Part shown: in pieces, positions 558 through 9,809 of the stretch
How the letters are laid out: each line of letters starts with the position of its first letter
Numbering within the stretch: position 1 is the first letter of the stretch
NCBI GenBank assembly: GCA_937921835.1
Contig: CAKZVG010000455.1
Location: 1 to 10,133, forward strand
DNA length: 10,133 nt
DNA from: an uncultured Bryobacteraceae bacterium
GTDB taxonomy: Bacteria > Acidobacteriota > Terriglobia > Bryobacterales > Bryobacteraceae
Direction: 5' to 3'
Translations under genes and position numbers: made by a program
The notes under the pieces: model-generated
Told to the model about the DNA's origin: nothing
The model's input: only the letters and a program-made list of their open reading frames with translations
Database searches by the model: none

Positions 558-2408
558 TCAATACGGCAGGTTCGTGAACAGGTGCTTGCCACCGCTCGCC
601 CGCACGCTGTGCAACGCGCCGCGCCCGACCAGGCCCTCGATGCGCGCCGCCGACGGGCCTTCCACCAGCAGGTAGTACCGCTCGGGGCTGCGCCAAAGCC
701 GGGCGAATTCCTGGTCGTCAAGAAAGGCGTCCGGCGCGCCGGGCTCATAAGAGCCGTACTCGAGGTTGTTGACCCGCCCGTTGAGCAGCAGCGCGCGGCG
801 GTTGGCGTAGAAGAACACCGAGGAGAACGTGTAGTACTGGTTGTCGGCGATCAACCGCCCCGGCGGCGCCTCTTGAAGCGCCCGCGCTAGGGGCCGCGAA
901 GACAGGTAGGGATCGAAGGCGATCATCGCCACCCGGGCGGCGTGAAAGAACACCACCATCATGAGCGCCAGCGCGGCCACGGCGCGGGGAAGCGGCAGGC
1001 GCCAGCTGGCCGCGCCAATCAGCAGCGCTACGCCCGCCAGCGCCAGCGGCAGCCGAAGATAGGCGAACGCGCCCAGGGTAAGGTCGGCCATGTGCCCGAG
1101 CGACAGCGTGTACAACTCCGGATTCAGCGTCAGGGCGTTTGAGATGTCGCCGGGCGTGGGCATTCCGTGCACCCGCGCCAGGATCGCCCCGATGACGATG
1201 GCTGCCAGCGCCGCCACCACCGCGACCGCGCGCACGCCCCAGCTAAGCCACCTGCCGCCGCCCGCCAGCGCGCATCCCAGCAGGAGCGCGAGCGCGGGAT
1301 AGCAGGGCATCGAGTAGTACTCCTGCGTCGTCGAGAAGGTGAAGAACGCCAGGATGAAGCCGGTCCAGCACAACGCCAGCAGCCGCGCGCGCCCGCCGCG
1401 GTCCGCCGGCCGGTAGCTTAGCTTCGCGAGCGCGGGCAGGAAGGCGCTCCAGGGAAACAGCCACAGCAGGTGGAACAGCCAGAAGGCCACGCGGGGCACG
1501 GTGTTGTAATCGCGCGGGTGGCGCATGTCGAGAAAGCGGAAGACGTGCTCGTTGAGGAAGTAGAACCAGAAGAAGCCGCGGTAGTGGCCGGGCTCGCTGC
1601 GCAGGGTGAAGTCGAAGTAGGGCGGGTTGCGCAGAATGGCCAGCAAGTGCCAGGGCCCGGCCACGGCCAGCACGATCAGCGCGCCCGTGAACGGACGGAG
1701 GCGGCGCCACGCGCGCGCCGAGAATAACTGCCGCGTGAAGGCCAGGTAGAGGAAGCCCGCCGCGCAGGGGAACACGGCCGCGATCAATCCTTTGAGCAGA
1801 AGCCCGGTTCCGATCGAGCCGGCCATCACCGCGGCCCACAGCCGCGGCCGCGGTTCGTCCTCCTCGAGCGCGCGCAGGAAAGCCCACATGGCAAGCGTGA
1901 TGGTGAGCGTGAGGATCACGTCCGGGATCAGAATGCGCGTGAACAGAAACAGGCCCACGCAGGTGGCCAGCGCCAGGCCGGCGTGGAAGCCCGCGCGCGG
2001 GGAGAACGCCCAGGCGCCGAAGCGGTACGCCACCCAACACAGCAGGATGGCCGAAAGGGCGACCGGCAGCCGCGCCGCCCAGTCGTGGACGCCGAACAGC
2101 AGGTAGGAAACCGCGATCATCCAGTACTTGAGCGGCGGCTTCTCCAGGTATTTCACGCCGTTGAGGCGCGCCGTCACCCAGTCGCCGGATTCGAGCATGT
2201 TGCGCGCGATCTGCGCCTGTACGGCGTCGACGTCGTCCATCAGCGACGGCGGGCCGATGGCGGTCCCCAGGAAGACCGCCGCGGCAACCAGGATGACGAT
2301 CAGTTGATAACGCCCGCCCCGGCTCTCGAGGATGTCATTCCCACCCCGCGGCCGGGCGTTTGAATGGCCCATTTCCTCATCCAGAGGAACAGGATCAGGA
2401 GACCCCAT
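558..2408 (-). CDS. ArnT-like (GT83/PMT family) integral-membrane glycosyltransferase
   Basis: This is a 616-aa polytopic protein of the ArnT/PMT fold, which transfers a sugar from a polyprenyl-phosphate carrier to an acceptor on the outer face of the membrane. After a first membrane helix (about residues 34-52) comes the family's acidic first loop ([17 protein letters not shown]), followed by [23 protein letters not shown], which closely resembles the ArnT motif around its catalytic aspartate and the EKPP/KYW segment. Roughly ten or more hydrophobic helices follow. The [17 protein letters not shown] stretch is also typical. A soluble C-terminal domain of about 110 residues follows (from about DPYLSSRPL to the end), presumably periplasmic. 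Sugar and acceptor cannot be told from sequence. The start is unresolved: ATG at 2408 or ATG at 2372, both inside asnB and neither with a well-spaced ribosome site. The first hydrophobic helix requires a start upstream of about 2310, so the overlap with asnB is real. Translation is probably coupled to asnB. Confidence 0.88.
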
Positions 2409-4219
2409 AGGTGATACCCGAGGTTAGCACGCCGGTTGAGATGGGCGCCGACGGCGGCCTCGACCGCGCCCGTCCGGAACAGGCCGGTGCGCTCGACGGC
2501 GGCGGGCGAGAGCGTGTCGGTGAGCAGCGGCCGCAGCACACCCCGCAACCAGCGGTGAGCCGGGATGTCGAAGCCTTCCTTCTTGCGCGTCAGCACCGCC
2601 GCCGGGAGCTTGCCGCGCATCAACTCGCGCAACAGAAATTTCAACTTTGAACCGCGCACCTTGAAGCCGGCCGGCAGCGAGGCGGCGAACTCGACGATGC
2701 GGTGGTCGAGAAACGGCGGCCGCACTTCGAGCGAATGCGCCATGCTCATACGGTCGCACTTGTACAGGATGTCGTCGGGCAGGTAGCAGATCTGGTCGAG
2801 CCAGAGCATCCGGTTGAGGCTGTCCAGGCGCTCCGCTTCGGGTGGCAGCAACGCCTTCAGGGAAGCTACGTCGGTCTCGGCCGGAACGGCCAGCAGACGC
2901 GCCTTCTCCTGGCGCGAGAAGGTGCCGTTCCAGAACAGGTGCGCCTCGAAGGGGTCGAGCAGCGATCCGGCCAGAAACCGCTTGAGCTTATACTCGAAGC
3001 CGATCTTGTCGTCCGACACCGGCCAACGGCCGAGCAGCCTGAGCCCCGCGCGGCGAATCGGGGCCGGAAGCAGCCGCAGCGCGCGCGCGTATCGGTCGGC
3101 CAGGTAGGTGTAGTAGCCTCCGAACAACTCGTCGGCGCCCTCGCCGCTGAGCGCCACGGTTACCTGCTCGCGGCACATGCGGGAGAGATACCAGACCGGC
3201 ACGGCGCCCGCGTCGGCGCTGGGCTCGTCGCCATGTTCGACGATGCTTTCGATGGTGTCCGGAAGCTCCGGGCCGGGGTTGAGATCGAACTCGTGATGCT
3301 CGGTGCCGAAGCGCGCGGCCACCTGGCGGAAGTAACGGCTTTCGTCGAACGTCTCCCCGCGGAAGGAGACCGAGAAGGTCTTCAGACGGCCGGCTGCGCC
3401 GTTCGCGGCGTAGTAAAGGATGGCCGAGGAGTCCAGCCCGCCACTGGCCCAGACACCCAGCGGCACGTCGGAAACCAGGTGCTCCCGCACCGACGCCGTG
3501 AGCAGCCCGTCGAGTTCTTCTTTGGCTTCTTCCAGCTTCCATGGGCGGGGCTCAAACCGGAGCTTCCAGTAGGGCCGGATCCCGGTCTGGCCGGCGCGCC
3601 ACTCCAACCAGTGGCCGGGCGGCAGTTTGCGGATGCCGCGCACCAGCGTGTAGGGGCAGGGGACGTAGTTGAGAGAGAGATAGAGCGACAGACCGTCGGG
3701 ATCGATCTCGCGGGCGATCTCCGGGTGCTCAAAGAGCGCCTTCAGTTCCGAGCCGAAGTAGATCTCGCCGCCCAGTTCGCAGTAGTAGAGCGGCTTGATT
3801 CCAAGCCGGCAGCGCGACAGCACCAGGCGCCGCACGGGCTCCGTCCACAGCGCGACGGCCCACATTCCGCGCAGCCGCTCGAAACAGCCGGTGTCCCATT
3901 CGAGAAAGGCGCGCAGCACCACCTCGGTGTCGCAGCGCGAGCGGAAGCGGTGGCCGCGGCTCTCCAGCTCGGCCCGCAGGGCGGCGTGGTTGTAGACCTC
4001 GCCGTTGAAGGCGATCACCGTCCCGCCGCCGGTGCTCATGGGCTGGTCGCCACCGTGCAGGTCGATGATCTTGAGGCGCACGGCGCCGAGCGAGGCCGCG
4101 TGGCCGTCGTAGACGCCTTGCTGGTCGGGCCCCCGGTGGACAAGCGTTGCCGTCGCGGCGCGGATGCGCTCCGGATCGGGACGGCGTTGGCTGTGGGTGT
4201 ATCCGGCGATGCCGCACAA
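2300..4219 (-). CDS. asnB: Asparagine synthase (glutamine-hydrolysing), TTG start
   Basis: This 639-aa class II glutamine amidotransferase-synthetase hydrolyses glutamine at its N-terminus and uses the ammonia, with ATP, to amidate aspartate or a related carboxylate. I place the start at TTG 4219 because the next codons read CGIAGY: the family requires the cysteine directly after the initiator Met, to be exposed as the N-terminal nucleophile. The ATG at 4246 would leave nine residues in front of it. The glutaminase signatures are [25 protein letters not shown] and CDTEVV (usually SDTE). The synthetase half has the PP-loop SGGLDSS at residues 259-265, [16 protein letters not shown], and the [17 protein letters not shown] segment. 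The length is at the long end for the family. The C-terminal tail after LWMRKW (about 22 residues) overlaps the next gene and is probably not functional. The neighbouring glycosyltransferase suggests a cell-surface glycan amidation role as an alternative to free asparagine synthesis; this is inference. Confidence 0.93.
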
Positions 4220-4235
4220 AATCGTGATCCCAAAA

Positions 4236-4266
4236 TCCGCCGCCACCGGATTTCACGAGCGGCGGA
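4236..4266 (-). promoter_or_regulatory. Hairpin in the asnB leader (attenuator- or terminator-like)
   Basis: Perfect 8-bp arms (TCCGCCGC and GCGGCGGA) enclose a 15-base loop. In the direction of transcription the hairpin is followed at once by TTTTGGGATC and then, 16 bases after the stem, the TTG start of asnB. The stem is GC-rich, but the T-run has only four bases, so it is a weak intrinsic terminator at best. It could end readthrough from the bfr unit or modulate asnB translation, since the GGGAT ribosome-site candidate lies just after the stem. Confidence 0.4.
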
Positions 4267-4309: not shown

Positions 4310-4573
4310 CTACTCGCCGCTCCGCTCCTGCCGGAGTTCCTGCATGGCCGCCGAGACGAGTTCCTTGGCGCCGTCCAGGGCGTGCGAGATCATGCGGATG
4401 TCCATCGCCGGCTTACCCGGGGTGCGGGCGCTCTGGCAATAGACGCCGTGCTGTCCCACCAGCACCAGCGCGTCGGTCAACAGGTCGAGCGTAAGCGCCA
4501 GCTTGCCGCGCGAGAGCCCGTACATGGTCTGGTAGGAGTCGAGCTCTTCGCGCCGCTCCTCGAACACCGACAT
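4310..4573 (-). CDS. Small helical protein of unknown function, downstream of bacterioferritin
   Basis: This 87-aa frame starts with ATG at 4573, nine bases after the bacterioferritin stop, and ends with TAG. Its codons have the strong G/C third-position preference of the surrounding genes, which argues that it is a real gene. The protein appears all-alpha and soluble: a charged start (MSVFEERREELDSYQ), a leucine-rich amphipathic segment around KLALTLDLLTDALVLVGQHG, a short TPGKPAMD turn, and a second helix ending in QELRQERSGE. It has one cysteine and no membrane segment. I do not recognise a family. There is no strong ribosome site between the genes (GAGGGAAG lies at the end of bfr, rather far upstream), so translation is probably coupled to bfr. 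A link to iron storage is suggested only by position. Confidence 0.65.
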   Translation of the reverse strand: MSVFEERREELDSYQTMYGLSRGKLALTLDLLTDALVLVGQHGVYCQSARTPGKPAMDIRMISHALDGAKELVSAAMQELRQERSGE

Positions 4574-4582
4574 CGCGCGCCG

Positions 4583-5065
4583 CTAGCTTCCCTCGCCCTG
4601 GTGCACCTGCTGGGCAAGGTAGTTGCTTAGGCCGATCTCCTGGATGAGGTGAAGCTGCGCTTCCAGCCAGTCGATGTGATGCTCTTCGTCGGTCAGGATC
4701 TTTTCGAAGAGCTCGCGCGAGCCGTTGTCGCCGGCTTCGACGGCGGCGGCTACGGCCTTGTTGAGCCGGGCCACGGCTTCGATTTCGAGCCCCAGGTCGT
4801 TCTCGAACTGCGCCTTCACGTCCTTGCCGATGCGCAGCGTGAACAACTCGCTCATGTTGGGCTCGCCGTCAAGATAGAGAATGCGCTCGATCAGCGCCTC
4901 GGCGTGCTTCATCTCGTCGATGGACTCTTTCTTGGTGTACTTGGCGAGCCGCTCATAGCCCCAGTTCTCGCACATCTCGGCGTGCAGGAAGTATTGGTTG
5001 ATGGCCGTCAATTCCGCCTTCAGGACTTCGTTCAGGTACGCAATTACCGTCTCGTTTCCGCGCAT
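4583..5065 (-). CDS. bfr: Bacterioferritin
   Basis: The 160-aa product has the length of E. coli Bfr and aligns without gaps to it by eye. It assembles into a 24-subunit cytoplasmic shell that oxidises ferrous iron and stores it as a mineral, limiting Fenton chemistry. All di-iron ferroxidase ligands are present at the expected positions: E18, E51, H54, E94, E127 and H130. M52, the axial ligand to haem shared at the subunit interface, is also kept (SIDEMKHAE), so this is a haem-binding Bfr rather than ferritin or Dps. The start is ATG 5065, chosen because MRGNETVIAYLNE matches the family's N-terminus and GGAG lies nine bases upstream. A longer in-frame reading to 5230 is a non-coding extension. 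An extended -10 and an inverted repeat lie upstream, consistent with its own regulated promoter. Confidence 0.96.
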   Translation of the reverse strand: MRGNETVIAYLNEVLKAELTAINQYFLHAEMCENWGYERLAKYTKKESIDEMKHAEALIERILYLDGEPNMSELFTLRIGKDVKAQFENDLGLEIEAVARLNKAVAAAVEAGDNGSRELFEKILTDEEHHIDWLEAQLHLIQEIGLSNYLAQQVHQGEGS

Positions 5066-5276: not shown

Positions 5277-6026
5277 ATGACCCATGCGATTCTCGAAGCC
5301 TGCGTCGCCTGTGCGCGGGAGTCGGAGAAGCCGCTCCCGGTGCGCCAGATCCGGGAACGGCTCGAGCGCGGCCTGCGCTTCCCGCCGCGGCGCGCGCCGG
5401 AGTTTCAGGAGCTTCTCAAGGAACGCGCGCGCGCCGGCGAGATCTGCGAATGGCCGGGCCGTTCGCCGCGCTTCTGGGGAACGAGTCTGGCTGATTGCGT
5501 ACAGGAGGCGCTGCTGGCCGTCCTGGCCGAAGGACCGTTCCTGGAGAAGCCATTGTTGAAGCGGATCCAACCGCGGCTGCACGGAGTGAATGCCAAGCAA
5601 ACCTGCGACGAAGCGCGCGCCGTGCTGCCCCGGCTCGAGAGCGACGGGCGGCTCTACAAGGCGATCGTTTCGCGGCAGCCTTTCTACATCTCGCGCGGTT
5701 GGGCGTTGAAGTTCGGCGGGCCGCCGCCTCCTGCGCCTCCAGCGCCGCAACCGGGCGGGCTGGAAGAGAGCATCCTGGCGGCGGTCGCCGGACTGGAACC
5801 GGGCTACGGCAACTACGTGCCCGTCTACCAACTGCGCGCCGCCGAGCCGGTCCGCGCCGCATTCGACCGCGCCGTGATCGCGCTCGCCGACGCGGGCAAA
5901 CTGGTGCTGGCCGGCTATGGTGGTGCGGAATCGGTTCCACCGGAGCGCATTCACTACTACGTCGAGGACGCGCAGCGCAGACTCTATGTTGCGGTCGCAC
6001 GGCCCCATCCGCCAGGGGTGTCCTGA
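5277..6026 (+). CDS. Tandem winged-helix-like protein, first gene of the ATPase/nuclease-translocase cassette
   Basis: This is a 249-aa soluble protein; I do not recognise a named family. It appears to be built of three similar units of about 65-80 residues. Unit 1 (about 3-68) ends ARAGEICEWPGRSPRFWG; unit 2 (about 73-141) ends LESDGRLYKAIVSRQPFYISRG; unit 3 (about 161-241) ends ALADAGKLVLAGYGG and then IHYYVEDAQRRLYVAVA. Each has two or three helices, then a D/A-G-x-hydrophobic turn into a beta hairpin, the layout of a winged helix. Units 2 and 3 are joined by a proline-rich linker (residues 147-161). No enzyme motif is seen. The start is well supported by GAGGAT about nine bases upstream. 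Its stop overlaps the ATG of the next gene by one base (TGATG), so the two are translated together. A role as DNA-binding or specificity subunit of the cassette is inferred from fold and context. Confidence 0.8.
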   Translation: MTHAILEACVACARESEKPLPVRQIRERLERGLRFPPRRAPEFQELLKERARAGEICEWPGRSPRFWGTSLADCVQEALLAVLAEGPFLEKPLLKRIQPRLHGVNAKQTCDEARAVLPRLESDGRLYKAIVSRQPFYISRGWALKFGGPPPPAPPAPQPGGLEESILAAVAGLEPGYGNYVPVYQLRAAEPVRAAFDRAVIALADAGKLVLAGYGGAESVPPERIHYYVEDAQRRLYVAVARPHPPGVS

Positions 6027-7921
6027 TGATCCCGGTCCAGAACCTCCAGAATCCGTTTGACGCCGCCATTGTGGCCTTTCCCGGCCAGCCGGTTCCGGCC
6101 GACGTCCGCGAGATCTACCACCTGGCGTTTGATAAGTGCCGTGAGGAGTATCTTCTCGTCGCCGGCGGCCAGTCCCGCTCCATGCTCTTTTGCGGCGAGG
6201 CGGGTTGCGGCAAGACCCATTTGCTTGGCCGGTTCCGCCGCTGGCTGGCGGGCGAAATCGATCAGGGCCCCCCGGTGCGGCCGGCGGTCTTTGTGGCGGT
6301 GCGCATGGAGACCGCGCCCAGCCAGGTATGGCGTCACCTTCGGCAGCGCTTCGCCGAAGAACTGCTGGAAATAACGTCCGATGGAACAGCCCTGCTTGAC
6401 GGCATCCTGGCGCGCTTCGCCGCGCGTCAGGCGGGCGGCGATCCCAGCCGCGCCTTCGAGGAAGCCGCCATCCGCGACCTGACGCTGGATCTTTCCAAGG
6501 TGTTGGAGCAGTTCTCGTCCGGGAAGCACCGGAGACTTTGCAGGGCGTGGCTCAAGGGCGAGACTCTGTCGGATCGGGATTTGGATACGCTCGGGCTTGG
6601 CGAGCGCCTGGAGGATGAGTCCGACGAGGAACTGGCGGAAGCCGCTGCCCGGCGCTTTGTTCTGGCGATGGTGCGGGTCTGTTCCCCTGAACCGGTTGTG
6701 TTCTGCCTCGATCAGGTCGAAGCGCTCGCCATCTCGATGGCGCCGAACTGCTACTCCCGGTTCTCGAAGATGGTGGCGTGCCTGATCGACGAGACCACCA
6801 ATGCGCTGGTGATCTCCTCGATCGTGTCACGATACCTGGCCGAATTCCGCGAAAAGTCCGAACCGGCCGATCTGGACCGAATCCAGAAAGCGGTTCAGGA
6901 TCTACAGCCGCTCGATCCGATGCTGGGGAGGAAGCTGCTCGAAGCCCGGCTGGAGGCGGCGCCCGCACTCAAGCCCTACCGGCCGCGCGGCGGCATCGAA
7001 CCGCTGCGCGCGGCAGATCTCGACCGCGTTTTCGCGGATCACCATGGCCGCTGCACCGCGCGCAAGCTGATCCATGAGGCGCACCGCCTGTTCGATCTCT
7101 GGCGCGGTGCTTCGCCGGAACCGTCCGTTCCGCGGGAGGAGTTCATCCGCCGCCGCTTCGCGCACTACCGCGAGGACTCGCCGGTCCGCAGCGACCCCAC
7201 CCGCGCCGAAGACATCCTGGCCCACGTTCTCGCCAAGGCCGCGCAGCTTGCCGGCCGGAAGATGCGGGCCGGAGGCGAAGCGGGGATCGAGTTCGAGGCT
7301 CAAGGATGTCAAGGCTCCGTGTTGGTGGCGCTTTGCAACCACGCGCACACGCCTTCGTTGGCCAGGAAGCTGAAGCGACTCATCGGCCAGCTCGACCGCG
7401 AAGCGATGCCGCGGCTGCGGCTGGTGCGCCATGAGAGGCTTCGCATCCCGCCAACGGCTGCCAAGACCCGCAAGTACCTCGAAGAACTGCAATCGGCCGG
7501 CGCCCGCCTTGTCCATCCGCGGCCGGAAGCGCTGGCGGCGCTGGACGCCATGCGGCGGCTGCTGGCTGAGGCAACCTCCGGCGACCTCACGCACCAGGGC
7601 GAAAGCGTCGCCGAAGAGACGGTCGCCGCCTGGCTGGCGGCGAACCTCCCCGCGGAGGTCTCCGCGCTGCTCGATGAACTCACTGGCGAGCCGGAAGGTG
7701 GGCCGCCTCCTCCAGCGCCCGACGGCGCGCTTCTTGAATTGCTGCGGGAGGACAAGGTGTTGGACGCCGCCGAAGCCGCCCGGCGGCTTGGCTGGACCCT
7801 GGAGCAGATGGAAAACCATGCGCGTCAGAATCCGGATTCCATTGGATTCGTGGCCGGCCCCGCCGCGGTCTTGTTTGACCTGGGCTTCGCGCCTGCCGTG
7901 GGCTCGGATCGTCATGCCTGA
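6026..7921 (+). CDS. P-loop ATPase with winged-helix-like C-terminus, second gene of the cassette
   Basis: The product is 631 aa. The ATG at 6026 shares its A with the upstream stop and has AGGGG seven bases before it; the frame is open further upstream but that part is antisense to protein logic and overlaps the first gene. Walker A is GEAGCGKT (residues 57-64, K63). Walker B is VVFCLDQVEAL (D229, Q230, E232): the usual DE is replaced by DQ-x-E, reminiscent of the DQFE motif of STAND-type NTPases. NALVISSIVSRYL (from 259) sits where sensor 1 is expected. A second region, about 430-530 (GSVLVALCNHAHTPSLARKL, later RLVHPRPEALAALDAMRRLL, SGDLTHQGE, WLAANLP), has an alternating strand/helix look but no motif I can name. 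The last 65 residues (LLELLREDKVLDAAEAARRLGW and on) look like another winged helix. It is probably a nucleotide-switched loader or regulator acting with the nuclease-translocase that follows. Confidence 0.88.
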   Translation: MIPVQNLQNPFDAAIVAFPGQPVPADVREIYHLAFDKCREEYLLVAGGQSRSMLFCGEAGCGKTHLLGRFRRWLAGEIDQGPPVRPAVFVAVRMETAPSQVWRHLRQRFAEELLEITSDGTALLDGILARFAARQAGGDPSRAFEEAAIRDLTLDLSKVLEQFSSGKHRRLCRAWLKGETLSDRDLDTLGLGERLEDESDEELAEAAARRFVLAMVRVCSPEPVVFCLDQVEALAISMAPNCYSRFSKMVACLIDETTNALVISSIVSRYLAEFREKSEPADLDRIQKAVQDLQPLDPMLGRKLLEARLEAAPALKPYRPRGGIEPLRAADLDRVFADHHGRCTARKLIHEAHRLFDLWRGASPEPSVPREEFIRRRFAHYREDSPVRSDPTRAEDILAHVLAKAAQLAGRKMRAGGEAGIEFEAQGCQGSVLVALCNHAHTPSLARKLKRLIGQLDREAMPRLRLVRHERLRIPPTAAKTRKYLEELQSAGARLVHPRPEALAALDAMRRLLAEATSGDLTHQGESVAEETVAAWLAANLPAEVSALLDELTGEPEGGPPPPAPDGALLELLREDKVLDAAEAARRLGWTLEQMENHARQNPDSIGFVAGPAAVLFDLGFAPAVGSDRHA

Positions 7922-9809
7922 GCCCGTCGAGGTCACCGTCAGCGGCCTCTGCCGCCGCATCCGCGAACTCGAACCCGCTCCCTCCGCCGAAGCCGCGGGC
8001 GGCGCGCTCTTTGGCGCTCTCTTTCACGCCACGGCCGCGGCCCTGTTCGATCCTGACCATCCCGCGCACTGGGAACAGATCCTCGATGACGAAGCCGACC
8101 GTGTCAGCCGCCTGGCCGCGGAGCTTTACGACCGGGCGCTGGGGCCGGAACTCGTCCGGCACCGCGCCCTGCTCGAGGGCGCGGGCGCGCGGGTGCTGGG
8201 AGTCTGGAACGCCACGCGGGCGTTCGCGCGCTGGTTCTGCCGCCTGGTGGAGGTGGCGGTCAGCAGCGGCGCTCTACGCTACGACGCCGCGCGCGAAACC
8301 TGGGAAGGCGCCGAAGGGTTATTCCAATCCGAAGTCGAACTGGCGGCTTGGTTCCGGGAGCCGGGATGGAAGCGCACGGTGCTGGTATCAGGCCGCGCCG
8401 ATAATCTCGTCCGCGCGGGCGCCAACAAGTGCTGCGTGGTGGAGTTCAAGCTTGGCGACGGCGGCGATAGCGCGGCTTTGCTGCAAGCCTGCCTGTACCG
8501 CCTGCTGCTCGATACGGGTGAGGCCGGCGCGGGGCGCACGTCAGTGGCGCTGGTGCGTTTTCTGCCCTCGGGCGAGCAGCGCGAGATCGTGATCTCTGCC
8601 GAGCGCGCCGAATCTGTGCGGCCGCAACTGATGGACCTGATCGCGGCGGAAGCCGAGGCGGCGTTGCATCCGGCGCCTCCCCGCCCGGCTGCCGGTGCGG
8701 TTCCCGGATGGCCGAAGCCGCCTGGGGAGGAGGAGGAGGAAACCGCCCGCCAGCTTCTGGACGCCTTCACCGAGTTCGGCGCGCGCGTCCGGCTTACCGG
8801 CCCGGCCCTGGTTGGTCCGGCGTTTGTCCGCTACTTCGTCGAGCCGGCGCGCGGGGTTCCCGCGAGGCGCGTCCTCAAGCAGGCCTTGAACCTGCAAGCC
8901 CGGCTGCGGCTGCCGCACGCCCCGCTCATCGACGTCGTGGACGGCCGAATCGCGGTCGACGTGCAGCGCGCCACCCGCGAGGATGTTCCCTTCGAGCACG
9001 TCCGCGGCGCGCTGCCGCCGCCCGACCCTGGGGCAGGCAATTCCCGCGTCCTGGTGGGCGTGGACCTTGCCGGGCAGGCGGTCTTCGCCGACTTCTCGGC
9101 GCCCGAAAATACGCACGCGCTGGTGGCCGGCGCGGCCGGCGGCGGCAAGACCGAGTGGCTGCGCTCGGCGCTGGCCAGCCTGCTGCTGGCGAACACGCCG
9201 GAGACGCTGCGGCTGGCGCTGGTCGATCCCAAGGGGAACGCCTTCGGCGACCTGGCCCGCTCGCCGTTTCTGTGGAAGCCGGGACCGCTCTTGCAGGCTT
9301 CCGGACAGGACGCTCTCGCCCTGTTCGAGGAACTGGGCGAGGAGATGGACCGCCGTTTCCGCCTGTTCGCCGTCTCCGGCGCCGACGATCTCCAGGCGCA
9401 TGCGCGCAAGGCGGGCGCGCCGCTGGCGCGGATCTTCTGTGTTTGCGACGAACTCGCCGACCTACTGCTGGCCGGGCGCGGCCTCCGCCAGGCAATCGAA
9501 AGCGCCGTCAACCGCCTGGGGCAGAAGGCGCGCGCGGCAGGCATCCATCTGATCTTCGCGACGCAGCGGCCGAGCCGGGACGTCGTCAGCGGCATCCTGA
9601 AGGCCAACCTGCCCTGCCGTGTGGCGCTGCGCGTCACCGAGGCGCTCGAGTCGCGCATCATCCTCGACGCCGGCGGCGCGGAGAACTTGCTCGGCCGCGG
9701 CGACCTGCTGTTCTTGAGCGCCGCGCGGCGGCTGCGGTTGCAATCGCCGTATCTGGACGAGCGCGCGCGGCGGGAGATCTTCGCGGGCGCCGCCGCTACA
9801 GCCGGTTGA
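7914..9809 (+). CDS. RecB/Cas4-type nuclease fused to FtsK-like DNA translocase
   Basis: The product is 631 aa, with ATG 7914 overlapping the previous stop by eight bases. Residues about 1-240 carry a full PD-(D/E)XK set in RecB/Cas4 order: G34xxxH38, GRAD163, VVEFK with E177 and K179, and Q191xxxY195. The linker at about 245-270 is Pro/Glu-rich. From about 275 the FtsK alpha domain follows ([35 protein letters not shown] and [15 protein letters not shown]). The motor then has Walker A GAAGGGKT (406-413, K412), Walker B IFCVCDEL (D512, E513), and the FtsK signature [34 protein letters not shown]. The N-terminal membrane helices and the gamma (KOPS-reading) domain of chromosomal FtsK are absent, so it is not the cell-division FtsK. 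The expected activity is ATP-driven pumping along duplex DNA coupled to cutting, functionally parallel to HerA plus NurA but in one chain. The last codons overlap the opposing larB gene. Confidence 0.92.

Follow-up and report, generated by a model that had tools for sequence, protein, structure and literature searches.

A three-gene operon for a winged-helix protein, an Orc-like ATPase, and a nuclease–FtsK fusion

We analysed a compact operon of three genes in a 10,133-nucleotide stretch of DNA from an uncultured Bryobacteraceae bacterium (GenBank assembly GCA_937921835.1, contig CAKZVG010000455.1). This stretch, to which we refer as the window, is the entire contig of a genome that is 62% complete, and the neighbourhood of the operon is visible only within it. 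According to the list of open reading frames (ORFs) and the sequence itself, all three genes lie on the plus strand, at positions 5277–6026 (gene 1), 6026–7921 (gene 2), and 7914–9809 (gene 3). Gene 1 begins with an ATG at 5277, ends with a TGA at 6024–6026, and encodes 249 amino acids; the ATG of gene 2, at 6026, has one base in common with that stop codon, and the gene encodes 631 amino acids up to a stop codon ending at 7921. Gene 3, which overlaps gene 2 by 8 bases (ATG at 7914, stop codon ending at 9809), likewise encodes 631 amino acids. A preliminary description of the window had reported the three genes with overlaps of 1 and 8 bases, and its coordinates proved exact.

Gene 3 encodes a fusion of a RecB/Cas4-type nuclease to an FtsK motor, as judged from Pfam matches, conserved residues, and sequence matches to FtsK chains in the PDB. 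The nuclease domain occupies approximately residues 16–249 (about 7959–8660, plus strand; PDDEXK_1, PF12705, E 1.9e-7) and the motor approximately residues 378–620, within which FtsK_SpoIIIE (PF01580) matches residues 378–554 with an E-value of 3.4e-31 (motor core at about 9045–9575, plus strand). The intervening match to FtsK_alpha (PF17854; residues 272–350, E 1.7e-4) reaches 22.2 bits, just below the cut-off of 22.9. When the window protein was aligned with 35 of 64 full or partial fusion relatives (P0002–P0065), the nuclease residues H38, D163, E177, K179, Q191, and Y195 were all kept in 34 of the 36 rows, and motor residue K412 in all 36. We take this set of H, D, E, K, Q, and Y to be that of the RecB/Cas4-type nuclease motif family; the motif is intact in gene 3, and the nuclease is predicted to be active. 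The two rows with decayed nuclease residues, P0061 and P0062, retain the motor lysine.

In a tree of the motor region, which took in the window and 28 relatives, a 100/100 branch separates these 29 fusion motors from 40 cellular FtsK proteins, with program warnings of long branches (P0065 most of all) and of unusual composition in the window row. The gamma domain (PF09397), which reads orientation signals in cellular FtsK, had no match among the 65 best fusion rows, that of the window included. PADLOC models matched the motor only (SspH, mad8, and HerA), apart from a weak match of the nuclease to Cas4 (E 0.0015). The match to SspH reached an E-value of 5e-52; the two strong SspH matches span only the last 290–330 positions of profiles that are 1766 and 1561 positions long.

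Gene 2 encodes a P-loop ATPase that is specifically of the Orc1/Cdc6 type of AAA+ proteins, followed by C-terminal domains. The preliminary description had called it a P-loop ATPase, which is correct but incomplete. The ATPase part covers approximately residues 1–366, with Walker A at 57–64 and Walker B at D229/E232, and its lysine is kept in all 46 aligned rows; AAA_22 (E 9e-7) was the sole model over cut-off, the other matches being to generic P-loop models. Beyond it, approximately residues 390–496 form an alpha/beta domain with the topology of a restriction nuclease (predicted as helix-strand-strand-strand-helix-strand over residues 391–467). This domain has no (D/E)xK pattern, and its N438 is kept in 45 of the 46 rows. 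The remainder, at approximately residues 500–620, is helical with winged-helix-like segments.

Gene 1 had no family match in Pfam, PADLOC, NCBIfam, or PHROG. Its AlphaFold2 (AF2) model consists of three tandem winged helices, at approximately residues 2–67, 71–139, and 162–241 (mean pLDDT 89.5, pTM 0.60). A Foldseek search with this model gave no row at E ≤ 0.001, and the best rows were the generic tandem winged-helix proteins ScpB, UFL1, and MukE; the structure rows returned by VIA were mostly single winged helices. Gene 1 is less conserved than its partners: the window protein is 45% identical to that of locus L134 and 19% to that of L107, compared with 53% and 37% for gene 2 and 58% and 43% for gene 3. 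We presume that this fast-evolving protein is a DNA-binding or adaptor subunit.

Recurrence of the trio

Using tblastn, we found 21 loci with genes 2 and 3, namely the window, L106–L115, L134–L142, and L164. In 19 of the 21, gene 1 is the immediate upstream neighbour, the copies at L114 and L115 being partial at contig ends. Locus L112 is cut by a contig end and starts inside gene 2. A profile of gene 1 found the gene in 20 of the 21 carrier genomes, the miss being G102, the genome of L142. Since order and strand recur in other genomes, the trio is not a chance arrangement, and the proposal of the preliminary description that the three genes belong together is borne out; its question whether two constant partners precede the fusion is answered in the affirmative. 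In all 19 loci for which the end of gene 1 was set by hand, a candidate ATG of gene 2 falls in the range from 47 bases upstream of that end to 4 bases downstream of it (this set includes L130 and omits L112, L115, and L142, which have no full gene 1).

Some loci depart from the common arrangement. At L142 (G102, contig C1), genes 2 and 3 occur without gene 1, a Thy1-family thymidylate synthase gene lies directly upstream, and no gene 1 was found elsewhere in G102. L130 (G413, contig C265, 2996–3694) has genes 1 and 2 only; the 3′ part of gene 2 is lost beside an ORF with a transposase-like helix-turn-helix match in Pfam, and the contig ends without a match to gene 3. L112 (G048, contig C69, 1469–3299) is a second copy in its genome, with a gene 3 match in two pieces; the other copy, L111, has an uninterrupted match.

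Relationship to known systems

The closest counterpart of the trio is a class of Orc/CDC6-linked neighbourhoods, which Rakesh, Aravind, and Krishnan placed within a wider theme of "HerA/FtsK capture" and for which they predicted a role against invaders (Rakesh et al., 2024; PMC10853773). In the available text of that paper, the class combines an Orc/CDC6 ATPase having an inactive restriction endonuclease (REase) domain between its AAA+ core and its C-terminal winged helix-turn-helix (wHTH) domain with an active REase and a HerA/FtsK motor; one set of the motors carries FtsK alpha, and a subset of the systems has a fast-evolving gene with two to four wHTH domains. The trio likewise has an AAA+ protein of the Orc/CDC6 family, a nuclease of the REase superfamily that is predicted to be active, a HerA/FtsK motor, and a gene with several wHTH domains. 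It also shares with the class, as described there, winged-helix-like segments and a compact operon, and the motif-less domain of nuclease-like topology after its AAA+ core may correspond to the inactive REase. On these protein features the trio very probably belongs to this class. The text describes two families of active REase in the class and does not state whether a RecB/Cas4-type FtsK fusion falls in either, and it describes the class from mobile gene neighbourhoods, whereas the trio has housekeeping flanks.

The idea of a wholly novel system was rejected, the proteins matching the class in that text largely domain by domain, and the class to which the "undescribed" system of the preliminary description very probably belongs has been in print since 2024 (PMC10853773). 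The class is known as a sequence prediction; the present lineage offers a minimal form of it, with three genes in about 4.5 kb, a recurrent order, and intact active sites, and the trio could easily be expressed as one piece.

Other systems resemble the trio in outline. According to the available text of the 2024 paper, DndFGH and SspFGH are also built from three genes, for a multi-winged-helix subunit, a P-loop subunit, and a chain that joins a nuclease to a HerA/FtsK motor. However, DndH is described there as averaging about 1700 residues with eight domains, among them inactive helicase, methylase, and target-recognition domains, as against 631 residues for gene 3, and DndF as a P-loop kinase, as against an Orc-type protein for gene 2 (PMC10853773). 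Membership of DndFGH was rejected on the size and domain content of gene 3. The HerA–NurA and HerA–nuclease defence pairs resemble the trio in coupling a ring pump of the HerA/FtsK superfamily to a nuclease. Such pairs consist of separate polypeptides and are not known to include an Orc-like ATPase or a winged-helix gene, whereas the motor of the trio is of the FtsK type and fused to a RecB/Cas4-type nuclease, which sets it apart from HerA–NurA. A paper of 2026, whose authors present the 2024 work as theirs in the available text, reports an offshoot related to BREX. These BREX-Related Capture (BRC) systems contain PglZ and an active STAND NTPase, and some of them GNAT and TGT as well (PMC12839542); none of these was recognized in the window.

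A sister operon with a HerA motor

A related operon, L166, lies in another class of the phylum (G488, contig C320, minus strand, approximately 6305–11091). It consists of a 253-amino-acid ORF, a gene for a 675-amino-acid Orc-like protein, and a gene for a 668-amino-acid nuclease–motor fusion, in the same order as the trio, with a 12-base gap followed by a 19-base overlap (for the chosen start). In hhalign, the Orc protein matched the gene 2 profile with 98.8% probability (E 9e-17, 540 columns), and the nuclease matched gene 3 with 84% (E 7e-6, 97 columns), with the residues of D...ExK...QxxxY present. Its motor is HerA rather than FtsK (HerA_C E 1e-13, DUF87 E 1e-7). The first ORF showed no sequence relation to gene 1 and had only sub-threshold matches in Pfam, to AbiEi_4 and Rpc34. 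The two operons thus appear homologous in the Orc protein and the nuclease and differ in the motor, which fits the proposed swapping of motors; such a difference between related operons is a natural experiment on the contribution of the motor.

Distribution and inheritance

As a query, gene 3 was swamped by cellular FtsK, with matches in 95 of the 101 close relatives searched; matches running from the nuclease into the motor occurred in 10 of the 101, the genome of the window included. A scan of contigs with gene 3 gave 75 loci, and all of the matches listed begin at query residue 203 or later, that is, they are of the FtsK type. Strong matches to gene 2 (E ≤ 2e-48) were confined to 15 of 399 genomes of the class, including the window's own and all in one family, and three further matches were weak. 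With a gene 2 profile, 43 of 396 genomes across the phylum had a match at E ≤ 0.001; the strong ones were in the window's own genome and in G741, G690, and G488, all three of them outside the class, that in G716 was intermediate (7e-8), and the rest were weak and short. G741 carries the trio, G488 the sister operon described above, and G690 a lone gene 2 relative. Beyond the phylum, a protein search gave a few relatives, for example P0058, with the source label Deltaproteobacteria.

The copies do not follow the genus labels. The gene 2 copy in G196 (genus g42) shares 53% identity with that of the window, which belongs to another genus, and only 32% with that of G333, which is also labelled g42. 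These comparisons suggest lateral exchange.

Two of the outlying loci have features of their own. The gene 2 relative in G690 (L165, contig C125, minus strand, 8732–10906) encodes 725 amino acids with a repetitive C-terminal tail, and genes 1 and 3 do not adjoin it. In G741 (L164, contig C17, minus strand, 6084–7199), dinB, encoding DNA polymerase IV, starts directly after the stop codon of gene 3.

Proposed function and its alternatives

The reading that we favour, and consider reasonably probable, is that the trio restricts invading DNA as a modification-independent, translocating nuclease positioned by its Orc-like component. The three products would act as a complex, in which gene 1 and the Orc-like gene 2 protein, with its winged-helix-like C-terminal part, would bind DNA or close around it at a favoured site or structure, and would thereby put gene 3 in place. 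Its FtsK ring would then pump double-stranded DNA past the fused RecB-type nuclease domains, which would cut or degrade it. As gene 3 lacks a gamma domain, it would depend on genes 1 and 2 for both its loading site and its direction. Assignment to defence draws support from the domain agreement with the published class, the keeping together of the trio and of its active sites, its patchiness, the suggested lateral exchange, and the change of motor. Should the trio restrict DNA, the choice of target would fall to an origin-recognition ATPase, in a compact system that works without modification. We put forward, more tentatively, a broader proposal: a bacterial site or structure reader of the Orc1/Cdc6 type, with a partner of three winged helices, may load a translocating nuclease ring on invading DNA, which would bring the logic of an initiator into an immunity that has no self-marking modification and in which the motor can be exchanged (FtsK here, HerA in the sister operon).

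Several results weigh against a role in restriction. The sparing of self DNA finds no explanation in modification: DndC (TIGR03183) was over the cut-off in none of the 21 carriers, and also in none of 14 control genomes, so that this search had no positive control; one 69-base match below the cut-off was seen, in G045, and the genome of the window is only 62% complete. (Phosphorothioation genes are common, but not obligatory, with DndFGH and SspFGH.) For genes 1 and 2, PADLOC had no good match. Foldseek and VIA did not establish a kinship of gene 1 with DndG, SspB, or FokI, although the lack of DndG, SspB, FokI, or REase rows in the VIA lists is no evidence for a different fold. The putative inactive nuclease domain of gene 2 had no fold match of its own, the VIA rows being driven by the AAA+ part. 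In the open subset of PMC, which leaves aside preprints and subscription papers, we found no experimental study of the Orc/CDC6–FtsK class.

The genomic setting counts on the same side. The preliminary description had asked whether the trio recurs near defence genes; among 20 flanking proteins of 11 loci (10 upstream and 10 downstream), none was recognizable as a defence or mobile gene product. They are housekeeping or unrelated proteins (2-oxoglutarate dehydrogenase, aldo/keto reductase, polyketide synthase, histidine kinase, ThiG, FolB, and others), one of them without a family, and the sole transposase-like neighbour seen adjoins the broken copy L130. Searches of 72,556 plasmid and 50,697 phage records (E 1e-5) gave no relative of gene 2, and none was confirmed in IMG/VR. 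In genus g44 the trio is present in five genomes; when the four loci whose flanks are complete are compared pairwise, 10–17 of 19 flank ORFs are common to both. The G196 locus has three flank ORFs in common with g44 loci, two of them of the OmpH and Cpn10 families, and a groES–ompH stretch is shared. The positions of the trio in g44 and G196 may therefore not be independent. Such a conserved neighbourhood might be that of a vertically kept locus, in which case the 32% identity within g42 could reflect old divergence and not transfer. Among the other pairs of loci, none has more than one flank ORF in common, the ORF caller having missed genes in some loci.

The preliminary description had offered both defence and double-strand-break processing as possible roles for its coupled DNA-processing trio; the first is now the best-supported reading, while repair of the HerA–NurA type has become the weaker, as the trio is patchy and its copies are at odds with the genus labels. 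Under the repair reading, the trio would be an accessory resection machine akin to HerA–NurA: broken ends would be passed on by the FtsK motor to the RecB-type nuclease, and genes 1 and 2 would act as loaders. RecB/Cas4-type nucleases with the QxxxY motif do act on DNA ends in AddAB and RecBCD, dinB follows gene 3 in L164, and the g44 neighbourhood is conserved. We nevertheless think this unlikely, given a strong gene 2 match in only 15 of 399 genomes, divergent copies inside one genus, and the lack of a repair gene among the 20 scanned flanking proteins, a set to which L164 does not belong.

It is still less probable that the trio responds to infection by killing the host, with the Orc-like ATPase, whose AAA+ group is shared with the STAND NTPases, as the sensor that unleashes the FtsK–nuclease on the chromosome in an abortive system. 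Gene 2 has no evident sensor region of the repeat type, and the presence of winged helices in both gene 1 and gene 2 speaks for the targeting of DNA. A very unlikely alternative is that the Orc-like initiator, its winged-helix partner, and the FtsK-like pump are a remnant of an integrated plasmid-like element, or work for one, in segregation or transfer. Initiators, FtsK-like motors, and winged helices together are typical plasmid functions, and the flanking genes mostly differ between genera; the class was, moreover, described from mobile gene neighbourhoods in the available text of the 2024 paper (PMC10853773). Against this stand the lack of an integrase or transfer gene among the scanned flanks, the negative plasmid, phage, and IMG/VR searches given above, and the conserved nuclease on the pump, which would seem harmful to a resident element.

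Surroundings of the trio

In the window, the trio lies between bfr (4583–5065, minus strand; family match E 5e-62), upstream, and larB (from 9796, minus strand; E 2e-53), downstream, and by the ORF coordinates gene 3 runs 14 bases into the 3′ end of larB. The preliminary description had named these flanks and had seen neither a methylase nor a mobile element between them; within the window, which is the complete contig, this holds, no methylase or mobile gene having been recognized. When 81 relatives were searched for each gene, bfr and larB were found on one contig and at most 20 kb apart in none but the window, many of the assemblies being fragmented. At L134 (G196, 14085–15595) and at the g44 loci, the nearby OmpH and Cpn10 genes have opposite orientations relative to the trio.

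Further upstream in the window, all on the minus strand, an 87-amino-acid ORF without a family match above the cut-off (4310–4573) lies between bfr and a gene for an asparagine-synthase-type amidotransferase (2300–4246), which also matches, below the cut-off, the XrtA/PEP-CTERM amidotransferase model. Beside the latter gene lies one for an ArnT-like glycosyltransferase (558–2408; match below the cut-off).

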